From a bacterium (GTDB lineage Bacteria > Patescibacteriota > Minisyncoccia > Phycocordibacterales > Phycocordibacteraceae): a stretch of 45,891 nt of DNA. The position numbers were made by a program, and so were the translations under genes. The stretch lies in assembly GCA_023269085.1 (NCBI GenBank), contig JAHFML010000002.1, positions 129,266 to 175,156 on the forward strand. Reading direction: 5' to 3'. Shown one piece after another: positions 322 through 45,694 of the stretch. Position 1 is the first letter of the stretch. Each line of letters starts with the position of its first letter. Below the pieces are notes generated by a model that was given only the letters and a program-made list of their open reading frames with translations, did no database searches and was not told where the DNA came from.

Positions 322-3042
322 ATGGCGAAACAATCTAAAAAGATAGAGCACGAACACACGCACGGGAGCGACTGGCTCTCGGTTCGTGGCGCCCGTACGC
401 ACAACTTGAAGAATATCTCGGTCGATCTGCCGCGCGGCGCAATGAGCGTCATCACGGGCCTCTCGGGGAGCGGGAAGTCCTCGCTCGCCTTCGACACTAT
501 CTTTGCTGAGGGTCAGCGACGCTACATCGAATCGCTCTCGGCCTATGCGCGACAATTCTTGAACCAGATGGCGAAGCCGGATGTCGACGAGATCACGGGC
601 CTCTCGCCGGCTATCTCAATAGACCAGAAGAGTCGTTCGAACAATCCGCGCTCTACGGTCGCGACAGTAACCGAGATCTACGATTATCTGCGCGTGCTCT
701 ATGCGCGCGCGGGTCAGCCCTACTGCGTCCATCACGACGTGCCCATCGTGCGTCTCTCGAAAGAGGAGATGATAAAGATGGTCTTTGAGCGCGTCGAAGC
801 ACGCCGCCAAGGTCGAACCTTAAATTCAAATTCCCAAAGTTCGACCTTGGCGGCGAACACTTCGGTTCTCGGGGTCGCAGTTGATAGAAGTACGGTAACT
901 ATTTACGCGCCGGTCGTCGTCGGGCGGAAGGGCGAATATTATCAATTGCTCTACGATTTGCTCGGCAAAGGGTATGAAAAAGTCGTCATCGACGGCAAGG
1001 TGCAGAGCTTGCGCGAGAAGATAATCCTCGATAAGAATAAGCGGCACAGCATCGACGCGCTCGTCGACTCGATCTTCGTGACCGAGTTTGCGCGCTCGCC
1101 GCAGGCCGCGCGCGAGCGGCTCTCTGAGGCGCTCGAGCTCGCGCTCAAGCAGACAGATGGGTTGGTGAAGATAGGGCACGCTGATGGCTCGCAGGAGACG
1201 CTCTCGTCCAAGTTTATCTGCCCGGACGATGGCGCGTCATTCCCCGAGGTCGAGCCGCGCCTCTTCTCCTTCAATTCGCCCTATGGCGCGTGCCCGGCTT
1301 GCAACGGCCTCGGCACCGCAACACTCTTCTCTGAAGAGCTGTGCCCTGTCTGCGAAGGGAAGCGCCTGCGACCCGAAGCACTCCGCGTGTACTTGCGAGG
1401 TACCGAAGCACGAGGACTTCGTAAGTCCTCTTCAGGGGCTGGACTTACGAAGTCCCAACATGGGCTCGGATTGAACATCGTCGACTTCACCTCGCTCTCG
1501 ATTCGTGAAGCAAAGGATTTCATCGATAGCGTCGAGCTCACCGACATGAAGTTCGATATCGCCGCGCCGATATTGAAAGAGATCGAGAGTCGACTCTCCT
1601 TCATGCTCAACGTGGGGCTCGACTATCTGACGCTCAATCGCTCGGCCGCGACGCTCTCGGGCGGCGAGGCGCAGCGTATCCGACTCGCCTCACAGCTCGG
1701 GAGCGGGCTCACCGGCGCCTTGTATGTGCTCGACGAGCCGACCATCGGTCTCCATCAGCGCGACAACGACCGGCTCATCAAGACGCTCCTCACGCTCAAG
1801 GAGCTCGGCAACACGATTGTCGTGGTCGAGCACGATGAGGACACGATTTATTCTGCCGACTATCTCGTCGATATCGGCCCGGGCGCGGGCGTGCACGGCG
1901 GGAAGGTTGTCGCGAGCGGTTGGCTCGATGAATTGCTCACCGCAAAGGAAAACAAAAGTGATTCGCTCACGCTCTCTTATTTGCGTCACGAAAAAGAAAT
2001 CGCCGTTCCCGAAGTGCGGCGCGAGAGCGAGAAGGGTTGGATCCGTGTGCGCGGTGCGACCCTGCACAATCTCGTCAATCAGAATGTCGACGTACCCTTG
2101 GGCAAGCTCGTCTGCATCACGGGCGTCTCGGGGAGCGGGAAGTCAACGTTCTTGTATGACATTCTGCATCGCAATATCGCGGCTCGCTTCACTCGCCGCG
2201 AATCCAAGCTCGAGCATGTCGCTTCGCTCACCGGCACTGAATATCTCGGCCGCGCCGTCCTCATCGACCAGTCTCCCATAGGCCGCACGCCACGCTCGAA
2301 CCCCGCGACCTACACCGGCGCCTTCACCCATATCCGCGACATCTTCGCGGCGACCAGCGAGGCACGAGCGAGGGGCTGGAAGCCGGGCCGATTCTCCTTC
2401 AACGTCCCCGGCGGTCGCTGTGAGGCGTGTCAGGGCAACGGCATGCTGGCGGTCGAAATGCACTTCTTGCCGACGGTCTACGTCACTTGCGATGTCTGCG
2501 AGGGCAAGCGCTTCATGAAGGAGACGCTCGAAGTCACCTACCGCGGCAAAAATATTTACGAAGTACTTCAGATGACCATTGAAGAGGCCGAAGCATTTTT
2601 CAACGACATTCCCGCCATCGCCGAGCGCCTACAGAGCTTGAACGCGACGGGGCTCGAATATCTGACCCTCGGCCAGAGTGCGACGACGCTCTCGGGTGGC
2701 GAGGCCCAGCGCGTCAAGATAGCGAGCGAGCTATATCGCTCTATGCCGATGAAGACGATCTATCTGCTCGACGAGCCGACCGTTGGTCTCCACTATGAGG
2801 ATGTGAAGAAGCTCATCGAGATACTCCAAGAGCTCGTGGCGCGCGGTAACACGGTGGTGGTCATCGAGCACAACCTCGATGTTATTAAAAGTGCCGACTA
2901 TGTCATCGACTTCGGTCCCGAGGGCGGCACGGGCGGCGGTAAGGTCGTCGCGAAGGGCACACCCGAGGAGGTCGCCGATGCGACAGGCTCCCACACCGCC
3001 ACCTACCTCGCCAAGGCGCTCGTGCGGCGAGTGAAGAAATAA
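322..3042 (+). CDS. uvrA: Excinuclease ABC subunit A (UvrA)
   Basis: DNA damage sensor of nucleotide excision repair. It is a dimeric ABC ATPase that loads UvrB at lesions in the cytoplasm. At 906 residues it is slightly shorter than the usual ~940. Visible elements: first Walker A near residues 46-53 (GLSGSGKS), zinc-finger cysteines at 324/327 and 341/344, first LSGGEAQR signature near 445, second Walker A at 601-609, second zinc finger at 700/703 and 723/726, and second signature at 790-797. Two palindromic inserts are translated in frame, at residues 161-178 and about 364-379, both outside the catalytic motifs. The ATG lies ten bases after a -10 box. The stop codon directly abuts uvrC, so the two repair genes are co-transcribed. 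Confidence 0.97.
802..855. repeat. In-frame inverted-pair palindromic element in uvrA (group A)
   Basis: Two arms of 17 bp (802-818 and 839-855) are perfect reverse complements around a 20-base spacer. Each arm holds the core AAGGTCGAAC or its complement. The core is itself a small hairpin, AAGGT-CGA-ACCTT. The arms extend into flanking CGCCGCC/GGCGGCG. The element starts on a codon boundary and encodes residues 161-178 of UvrA without disturbing the frame. There is no T-run, so it is not a terminator. Confidence 0.85.
1412..1457. repeat. In-frame palindromic pair in uvrA (group B)
   Basis: A first hairpin GAGGACTT-CGT-AAGTCCTC (1412-1430) and a second GGACTT-ACG-AAGTCC (1441-1455). Their 15-base cores are reverse complements of each other. 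The same pair occurs in uvrC at 3987-4032, including the trailing N3-ATGGG. Confidence 0.85.
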
Positions 3043-4362
3043 ATGGAACGCACTCACCCATCGATAGAGAAACTGCCCGAGGTGCCGGGAGTGTATCTCT
3101 TCAAGAAGGGAAGAGAGGTGCTCTATATCGGCAAGGCGACGAACTTGCGCGACCGGGTGAAGAGTTATTTTGACGATGATCTCATCGCGACGCGGGGCCC
3201 TCGCATCGTGAACATGGTGACCCGGGCCGACCGCGTCGCGCACGAGCCGACGCCGACAGTGCTTGAAGCCTTGGTGCGCGAGGCGGCGCTCATCAAGCAG
3301 TACCAGCCGAAGGCGAATGTCGAGGGGAAGGACGACAAGACCTTTCTCTATGCGGTTATCACCGAAGAAGAGTGGCCGCGCGTGCTCACGGTGCGCGGCA
3401 AGGATATGAAAGTATCGAAGTCTGACTTCGATACTTTGCCGTTCTCGCATGTCTGCGGCCCGTTCCCCTCCGGGCCGCAGCTTCGCGAAGCATTGCGGCT
3501 CATTCGACGCATCTTTCCATTCTACGACACGCCGAAGCCGGTCACGACGACGAGCAAACATGTGCGCGCGAAGATTGAGTTCAATCGCCAGATAGAACAC
3601 TATCCTCGCGAGCTTGATGCAGAAGCGTATCGGCACACGATCCGACATGTCGCCCTGCTTCTCTCGGGAAAAGGGAAGGAGCTCCGGCGCACACTGGAGC
3701 GTGATATGAGGAGGGCGGCGAGAGAAGAGCGGTTTGAGGACGCGATTATCGCACGCCGAGAGCTCTATGCGCTCAATCATGTGCAGGACGTGTCGCTCAT
3801 CAAGGAGGAGAATCTCGCGCACCAAGGTTCGACCTTGAGAATTCTGGGCGAAGGTCGAACCTTGGTGCGCGTCGAGGCCTACGACACCGCGCACCTTGCG
3901 GGGACGAACGCGATCGGCGTGATGGTCGTAGTCGTAAGCGGCGTGCCGAGCAAGCGCGACTACCGTTCATTCACTTTGCGTGGCAAGGACTTCGTAAGTC
4001 CCTCGTCATATGGGGGACTTACGAAGTCCCCCCATGGGCGGCGTATCAATGACGATATCGCCTCGCTCAAAGAGATTCTCGCGCGGCGTCTCGCTCACCC
4101 TGAATGGCCACTGCCAAGCGCCATCGTTGTCGATGGCGGCAAAGCGCAGAAGAAAGCGGCCGAGCAGGTTATTGCCGAGGCGGATCTCGCGATAAAAGTC
4201 GTTGCCGTGGTGAAGGATGAACGGCATCGCCCGCGCGAAATTATCGGCGGTCGCATTGCCGGTGTGAGCGATGCTGACGCAGTGCTCGCGAACAGCGAGG
4301 CGCATCGCTTCTCGCTCGCGCGCCATCGTGCCGCGAGGAGCAGGGGATTGCGGACGAAATAA
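3043..4362 (+). CDS. uvrC: Excinuclease ABC subunit C, short form (UvrC)
   Basis: The nuclease that cuts on both sides of a UvrB-marked lesion. It has 439 residues against about 600 in typical UvrC. Domains: GIY-YIG nuclease (GVY at 16-18, YIG at 28-30), UVR helical hairpin for UvrB contact near 216-245, and an RNase H-like endonuclease with likely catalytic D281, D364 and H428. The C-terminal helix-hairpin-helix region is absent, because the protein ends right after RHRAARSRGL. The four cysteines that bind an Fe-S cluster in E. coli UvrC are also missing; the only cysteine is in a VCGPF motif. Three palindromic elements are translated in frame. The start codon abuts the uvrA stop. Short UvrC is, from memory, usual in CPR bacteria. 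Confidence 0.93.
   Translation: MERTHPSIEKLPEVPGVYLFKKGREVLYIGKATNLRDRVKSYFDDDLIATRGPRIVNMVTRADRVAHEPTPTVLEALVREAALIKQYQPKANVEGKDDKTFLYAVITEEEWPRVLTVRGKDMKVSKSDFDTLPFSHVCGPFPSGPQLREALRLIRRIFPFYDTPKPVTTTSKHVRAKIEFNRQIEHYPRELDAEAYRHTIRHVALLLSGKGKELRRTLERDMRRAAREERFEDAIIARRELYALNHVQDVSLIKEENLAHQGSTLRILGEGRTLVRVEAYDTAHLAGTNAIGVMVVVVSGVPSKRDYRSFTLRGKDFVSPSSYGGLTKSPHGRRINDDIASLKEILARRLAHPEWPLPSAIVVDGGKAQKKAAEQVIAEADLAIKVVAVVKDERHRPREIIGGRIAGVSDADAVLANSEAHRFSLARHRAARSRGLRTK
3409..3437. repeat. In-frame palindrome in uvrC (group C)
   Basis: A perfect 13-bp stem (3409-3421 with 3425-3437) around the loop CTG. It is read as K-V-S-K-S-D-F-D-T-L. A near copy, in the same reading frame, lies in leuS at 21059-21087. 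Confidence 0.85.
3816..3871. repeat. In-frame inverted-pair palindromic element in uvrC (group A)
   Basis: Perfect 21-bp inverted arms (3816-3836 and 3851-3871) around a 14-base spacer. Each arm contains the core AAGGTTCGACCTT or its complement, extended by CGCGCACC/GGTGCGCG. It shares its core with the element in uvrA at 802-855. It sits just upstream of the codons for the RNase H-like domain. Confidence 0.87.
3987..4032. repeat. In-frame palindromic pair in uvrC (group B)
   Basis: GGACTT-CGT-AAGTCC (3987-4001) and a longer second hairpin with 9-bp arms (4012-4020 with 4024-4032) around ACG. The second core is read as G-L-T-K-S, as in the uvrA copy, while the first half is read in a different frame from uvrA. 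Confidence 0.85.
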
Positions 4363-45679: not shown

Positions 45680-45694
45680 GGTCGAACCTTACTC
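45674..45694. repeat. Palindrome across the dnaK stop codon (group A)
   Basis: GAGTAAGGT-CGA-ACCTTACTC: perfect 9-bp stem with the group A core. The TAA stop of dnaK (45677-45679) lies in its 5' arm. The real terminator follows separately. Confidence 0.8.

Follow-up and report, generated by a model that had tools for sequence, protein, structure and literature searches.

Short palindromes lie in frame within unrelated genes of a Kaiserbacteria-type member of the Patescibacteria, and we conclude that they are very probably non-autonomous elements of a transposase system: repetitive extragenic palindromic (REP) elements and their inverted doublets (REPINs, REP doublets forming hairpins), served by a REP-associated Y1 HUH tyrosine transposase (RAYT). 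We analyzed a 45,891-nt stretch (G000:C5:129266-175156), which we call the window, of the 710,721-bp genome of this uncultured organism. The relatives of the UvrA encoded in the window are Kaiserbacteria and other Paceibacteria metagenome-assembled genomes. The phenomenon is real and extends across the lineage, and the kind of element is known. What is new is its untagged, mainly intragenic form, and the degree to which it occupies genes is unusual.

Element families and their locations were surveyed in a 462-kb sample of the organism's own genome. This consisted of stretches picked around family A matches together with some unselected ones, and densities are valid for the sample only. We recovered seven families, A (AAGGTTCGACCTT), B (GGACACCTAGTGTCC), C (CGAAGTCTGACTTCG), D (GGACATCCGATGTCC), E (GGACTTCGTAAGTCC), F (GGACATATCATGTCC) and G (GGGTTTACGAAACCC), in agreement with an original prediction, made from the window, that several sequence types are common to unrelated genes. 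The unit of each family is a perfect palindrome of 13-15 nt with a 3-nt loop. As expected of REPs, these are short palindromes in many copies (103 hairpins in the 462 kb), with full stems that are often 19-29 nt. As expected of REPINs, there are two inverted REPs with a short spacer: a doublet comprises a hairpin, about 12-14 nt, and an inverted hairpin, and we found 27 doublets with a spacing of mostly 27 nt. The family A doublet is 42 nt including a closing C/G.

This repetition exceeds chance. For family A, the whole genome contains 53 copies, against none of the reversed pattern used as a control, and genomes of the same genus have 0-6 copies each. Counting doublets in coding DNA as inverted-repeat arms of at least 12 with a spacer of 5-45, and using codon-preserving shuffles as a control, we found 49 in open reading frames (ORFs) of the sample versus 2.5 +- 1.3 in shuffled sequence, an approximately 20-fold difference. 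In the window alone there were 10 versus 0.6 (maximum 2 in 50 shuffles), and perfect palindromes of 7 bp with a 3-nt loop numbered 15 in its coding DNA versus 4.9 (maximum 10). The cores are therefore commoner than in shuffled sequence, a comparison that had been proposed as a refuting test. REPIN-like doublets were also observed in ORFs at the distant Kaiserbacteria-type loci L080, L085, L084 and L070. A group of 15 loci (214 kb) at 78-80% identity contained no REPIN-like doublets, indicating a patchy distribution.

Palindromes were present in the window at or near all of the main places predicted:

809..848, + strand: uvrA, family A REPIN (AAGGTCGAACCTT - 14 nt - AAAGTTCGACCTT) with one mismatch in the second arm.
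1414..1455, + strand: uvrA loop, family E REPIN (GGACTTCGTAAGTCC - 12 nt - GGACTTACGAAGTCC).
3409..3437, + strand: uvrC, family C single REP AAAGTATCGAAGTCTGACTTCGATACTTT; the same REP borders the RAYT gene at G000:C5:66991-67677.
3824..3863, + strand: uvrC, family A REPIN coding for QGSTLRILGEGRTL, with an outer stem GCGCAC/GTGCGC.
3987..4029, + strand: uvrC loop, family E REPIN; a variant doublet occurs in the same loop of L034.
12313..12352, + strand: end of atpA, family D REPIN spanning the stop codon.
17096..17110, + strand: after the gene at 16589, family F single REP GGACATATCATGTCC, immediately past the stop codon.
21060..21087, + strand: leuS, family C single REP, core GAAGTCTGACTTC.
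35231..35249, + strand: alaS, family A single REP TCCAAGGTCGAACCTTGGA.
41182..41206, + strand: rpoA, perfect palindrome of 11 bp with a 3-nt loop; family membership unproven.
45673..45695, + strand: end of dnaK, family A (GAGTAAGG form) single REP TGAGTAAGGTCGAACCTTACTCA, which overlaps and provides the TAA stop.

The hairpins with 3-base loops described earlier are real, but that description overlooked that five of the sites (two in uvrA, two in uvrC and the one in atpA) are inverted doublets with starts 25-28 nt apart. The doublet unit is about 40-43 nt at half of the window sites. The rpoA palindrome exists but matched no repeated family in the 462-kb sample, and where an internal dnaK copy of GGACATCSGATGTCC had been reported we found only unrelated imperfect palindromes. 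In atpA the TAG stop is formed at the junction of the family D spacer and the second hairpin. GTAG REPs of other phyla are likewise known to provide stop codons, as the dnaK and atpA elements do here.

Families A, B and C flank cognate RAYT genes. A search with PF01797 identified five Y1 genes in the organism's own genome, comprised of one IS200-type TnpA (L101, which matches NF033573) and four RAYT-like genes. The H-x-H (HUH) and Tyr residues that define a Y1 HUH enzyme are invariant across 17 aligned RAYTs, which also contain NHFH, FQ, YIHLNP and SS motifs. Three of the four RAYT genes are bracketed by one family each, L113 by A, L123 by C and L130 by B, and the hairpins at RAYT loci are usually some tens of bases or less away from where the gene starts or stops. 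The alaS form TCCAAGGTCGAACCTTGGA is the form bordering the RAYT gene at G000:C5:73759-74433. The fourth RAYT, L131 (G000:C2:175541-176215), has intact motifs and is an orphan or has lost its REP family.

A loose repeat test around RAYT genes (17-mers with 3 mismatches) gave 20 false positives in 100 controls and was replaced by a strict one. Of the 482 ORFs in the strict scan, just four were flanked by matching hairpins at both ends: three RAYT genes and an ORF beside a RAYT. In relatives, the RAYT gene is bracketed in nearly every case by a hairpin particular to its locus, while the IS200 and other Y1 loci L101-L104 are not flanked in this way. Family D has a cognate RAYT in relative L107, and an F-like one is found in L122. 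REP core similarity follows RAYT identity over 22 RAYTs (Mantel r 0.46, 0 of 20,000 permutations); the two co-diverge. Across the phylum a RAYT profile matched 109 of 287 sampled Patescibacteria genomes, and 18 of 29 RAYT loci contain a repeated hairpin, in most cases with copies to either side of the gene.

The RAYT gene itself contains extra in-frame REP copies at L113, L106, L124, L126 and L127. In the last four of these, two cognate REPs occupy two conserved RAYT positions, and the peptides they encode (QLGGPTAK, LGGSTAK, GGPTAT, LGGPASK) vary between RAYTs together with the flanking REPs. At L115 (G014:C9:2813-6055) six copies of GTGGGTATCAGATACCCAC surround the RAYT, four of them on the 5' side.

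Alignments show that the elements are insertions. In UvrA and UvrC (protein and DNA alignments) and in UvrB, every element proves to be inserted in frame, and most relatives lack it; uvrB is the gene directly upstream in the same genome. The uvrA element at 809-848, which codes for a 14-residue peptide, is a lineage-specific insertion absent from most relatives, with an A unit present there in L027. The uvrA loop at 1414-1455 holds other hairpin doublets in L022, L023, L026, L027, L030, L036 and L042. At the VSEG-GQIADF loop of UvrB, our genome has family B, L024 has F, L039 G, L040 D, L042 an A-like doublet and L025 yet another type; the loop is short in L026, L029, L032, L041, L058, L100 and L031. 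Both inserted UvrB peptides align to gaps of the solved structure 3UWX. Near residue 199 of TopA, family A is found here and in L200 and L217, a different family occurs in L222, and the site is empty in most others. All in-gene copies examined keep the frame and are stop-free, and the family A unit can be read through in three to five of its six frames. Loops of UvrA, UvrB, UvrC and TopA are insertion hot spots for different REP families in different relatives. The earlier proposal of mobile palindromes inserted in frame was right in this respect, and the inserted peptides are absent from homologues, whose conservation of them had been named as a second refuting outcome.

Targeting specific to UvrA and UvrC was tested in relatives; uvrA density was near background and that of uvrC about 2.5x, so we claim no uvr-specific target. 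An AlphaFold model of UvrB from 14 sequences had a pLDDT of 43 and was discarded. Around residue 260 of UvrC, L024 and L039 contain hairpins of the CCCTTCGACAGGCTCAGGGC / CCCTTCGACAAGCTCAGGGC type, which we take to be a repeat common across many metagenome-assembled genomes.

REPs are extragenic by name. The elements here are not mostly extragenic: 44 of 75 (~59%) lie in the longest ORFs, 7 at ORF edges and 24 between genes, and 21 of the 27 doublets are in the longest ORF. Several of these in-ORF assignments (proS, polA and the N-terminal elements of dnaE and def) were withdrawn once domains and alignments had been checked, the true starts probably lying downstream of the elements. In a manual count restricted to elements inside conserved domain spans or between two such spans, 18 of 30 were in replication and repair genes compared to 4 of 31 random annotated genes drawn by length (Fisher p 1.6e-4). 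This bias had p 0.006 without uvrABC and p 0.02 when counted by gene. The genes hit are uvrA, uvrB, uvrC, dnaE, dnaG, dnaX, a delta'-like gene, topA, and genes for an HhH-GPD glycosylase and an Exo_endo_phos protein. Because the background is small and unmatched for gene conservation and the sample was partly drawn around family A sites, this over-representation is only suggestive. It agrees with a remark on intragenic REPs by Di Nocera et al. (2013, PMC3733652), who left it unexplained. Elsewhere in the window, positions 5354-7075 contain a cluster of six tRNA genes (Ala, Val, Pro, Pro, Ala, Ala).

The outer flanks of the doublets are complementary over a mean of 5.1 bp versus 1.06 bp when permuted (maximum 2.75 bp in 5,000 permutations), and their sequences are site-specific, for instance CGCCGC/GCGGCG at the uvrA element at 809-848. 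Complementarity this strong could reflect insertion into pre-existing hairpins, and L022 and L042 have GC hairpins at the uvrC site. Such a choice of target is unlikely, though it merits consideration, since the stem varies between relatives at the same site. Where relatives have an identically placed unit of family A, the topA stem is 5 bp here but only 0-1 bp in L200 and L217, and the stem at uvrC 3824-3863 is 7 bp here but 0 in L023. This variation favors the explanation that outer stems probably arise by templated change after insertion and not by selection of a palindromic target.

We propose the following model. A RAYT encoded between two copies of its cognate hairpin would act in trans: on recognizing this hairpin in single-stranded form, it would copy the REP or REPIN or move it. 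We infer that RAYT catalyzes this movement from the described enzymes of E. coli and Stenotrophomonas (PMC8266576). Elements would land in coding DNA, where in-frame copies in tolerant loops may survive purifying selection, and the open frames of the family A unit (three to five of six) could help them to persist in frame. Persistence of copies that keep the frame in tolerant loops would explain why the same UvrA, UvrB, UvrC and TopA loops hold different families in each species. Hairpin-templated (quasipalindrome) mutation may then produce the outer stems.

Several observations weigh against this reading. The organism's RAYTs match the NCBIfam REP_Tyr_transpos model (NF047646) at 30-50 bits, below its 80-bit cut-off, and are divergent relatives. 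No repeated hairpin was found around the L131 gene, and families D, E, F and G have no cognate RAYT in the organism's own genome. The GT[AG]G tag usual at the 5' foot of described REPs was found in 0 of 44 family A copies and in 3 of 35 copies of other families; this tag is usual but not universal among REPs (PMC6006769). The evidence for mobility is comparative, between species-level genomes.

The families that lack a cognate RAYT, the missing tag and the very short unit would also fit the original prediction of a new class of mobile or recombinogenic micro-element independent of RAYTs. However, each of families A, B and C borders a RAYT gene of its own, matching flanks among the 482 ORFs single out RAYT genes, and REPs co-diverge with RAYTs, making such a class very improbable. 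The claim that the class is undescribed also fails because in-frame intragenic REPs were reported in 2013 (PMC3733652). The copies at gene ends (atpA, dnaK and 17096) and between genes suggest terminators, operators or uptake signals that fall in genes by chance. Yet the elements have no T-runs, occur within conserved domains of many unrelated genes, are insertions particular to a lineage that can belong to different families within one loop, and share no conserved flank across all families beyond the palindrome. We consider this explanation extremely unlikely. Hairpin inserts in essential genes also recall programmed translational bypassing elements (byp-like hops), which the ribosome skips and which are known from yeast mitochondria. 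Bypassing needs no frame-keeping, yet every in-gene copy examined is in frame and stop-free and the family A unit has three to five open frames out of six, so that bypassing is scarcely credible here.

Beyond attribution to a RAYT system, a RAYT lineage of Patescibacteria resembling a subclass said to lack REPs may drive untagged, perfectly palindromic, mainly intragenic REPINs that are kept preferentially in proteins of replication and repair because the peptides they add alter how these proteins work, for example by tuning repair or replication of hairpin DNA. We regard this as doubtful.

These results describe a streamlined genome in which REPINs are mostly inside genes, many of them essential, and offer a natural collection of dozens of peptide insertions that recur in the same UvrA, UvrB, UvrC and TopA loops. 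The range of RAYT-REP systems now includes about a third of the Patescibacteria sampled; our search of one open-access library yielded nothing on point about REPs or RAYTs in this phylum. The over-representation in replication and repair genes repeats, in a distant phylum, the unexplained remark of 2013, and why REPs sit in repair genes therefore becomes testable across hundreds of Patescibacteria genomes. Annotators should be aware that such peptides are derived from elements.

Comparison with known systems places the elements as follows. Like the REPINs of Pseudomonas fluorescens SBW25 (PMC3116915), they are inverted doublets, with several families per genome and hairpins flanking RAYT genes. 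In SBW25, the REPIN 16-mers are extragenic, with 14 of 1,067 overlapping genes (PMC3116915), whereas about 59% of the elements here are in ORFs, the unit is shorter and there is no GTAG tag. Intragenic GTAG/CGTC REPs are known from Opitutus terrae, Thioalkalivibrio and Rickettsia conorii, where, as here, REPs and REP dimers lie inside unrelated genes, many for replication and repair including uvrA and uvrB (Di Nocera et al. 2013, PMC3733652). Those REPs are mostly intergenic and tagged, and ours are untagged, mostly intragenic and from a different phylum. In length and motifs the RAYTs resemble TnpA_REP subclass 2.1 (FQ, Y[IV]HLNP, ~238 aa; PMC6006769), a likeness by motif and not by phylogeny; no REPs were found with that subclass in that study, unlike here. 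The in-frame cognate REPs in RAYT ORFs resemble subclass 2.4, in which REPs occur inside the tnpA gene (PMC6006769). Rickettsia palindromic elements, cited earlier as a precedent, are a fair analogy in that palindromic repeats are inserted in frame in many genes, but their unit is about 150 bp, whereas the elements described here are 13-43 nt and have cognate RAYT genes.

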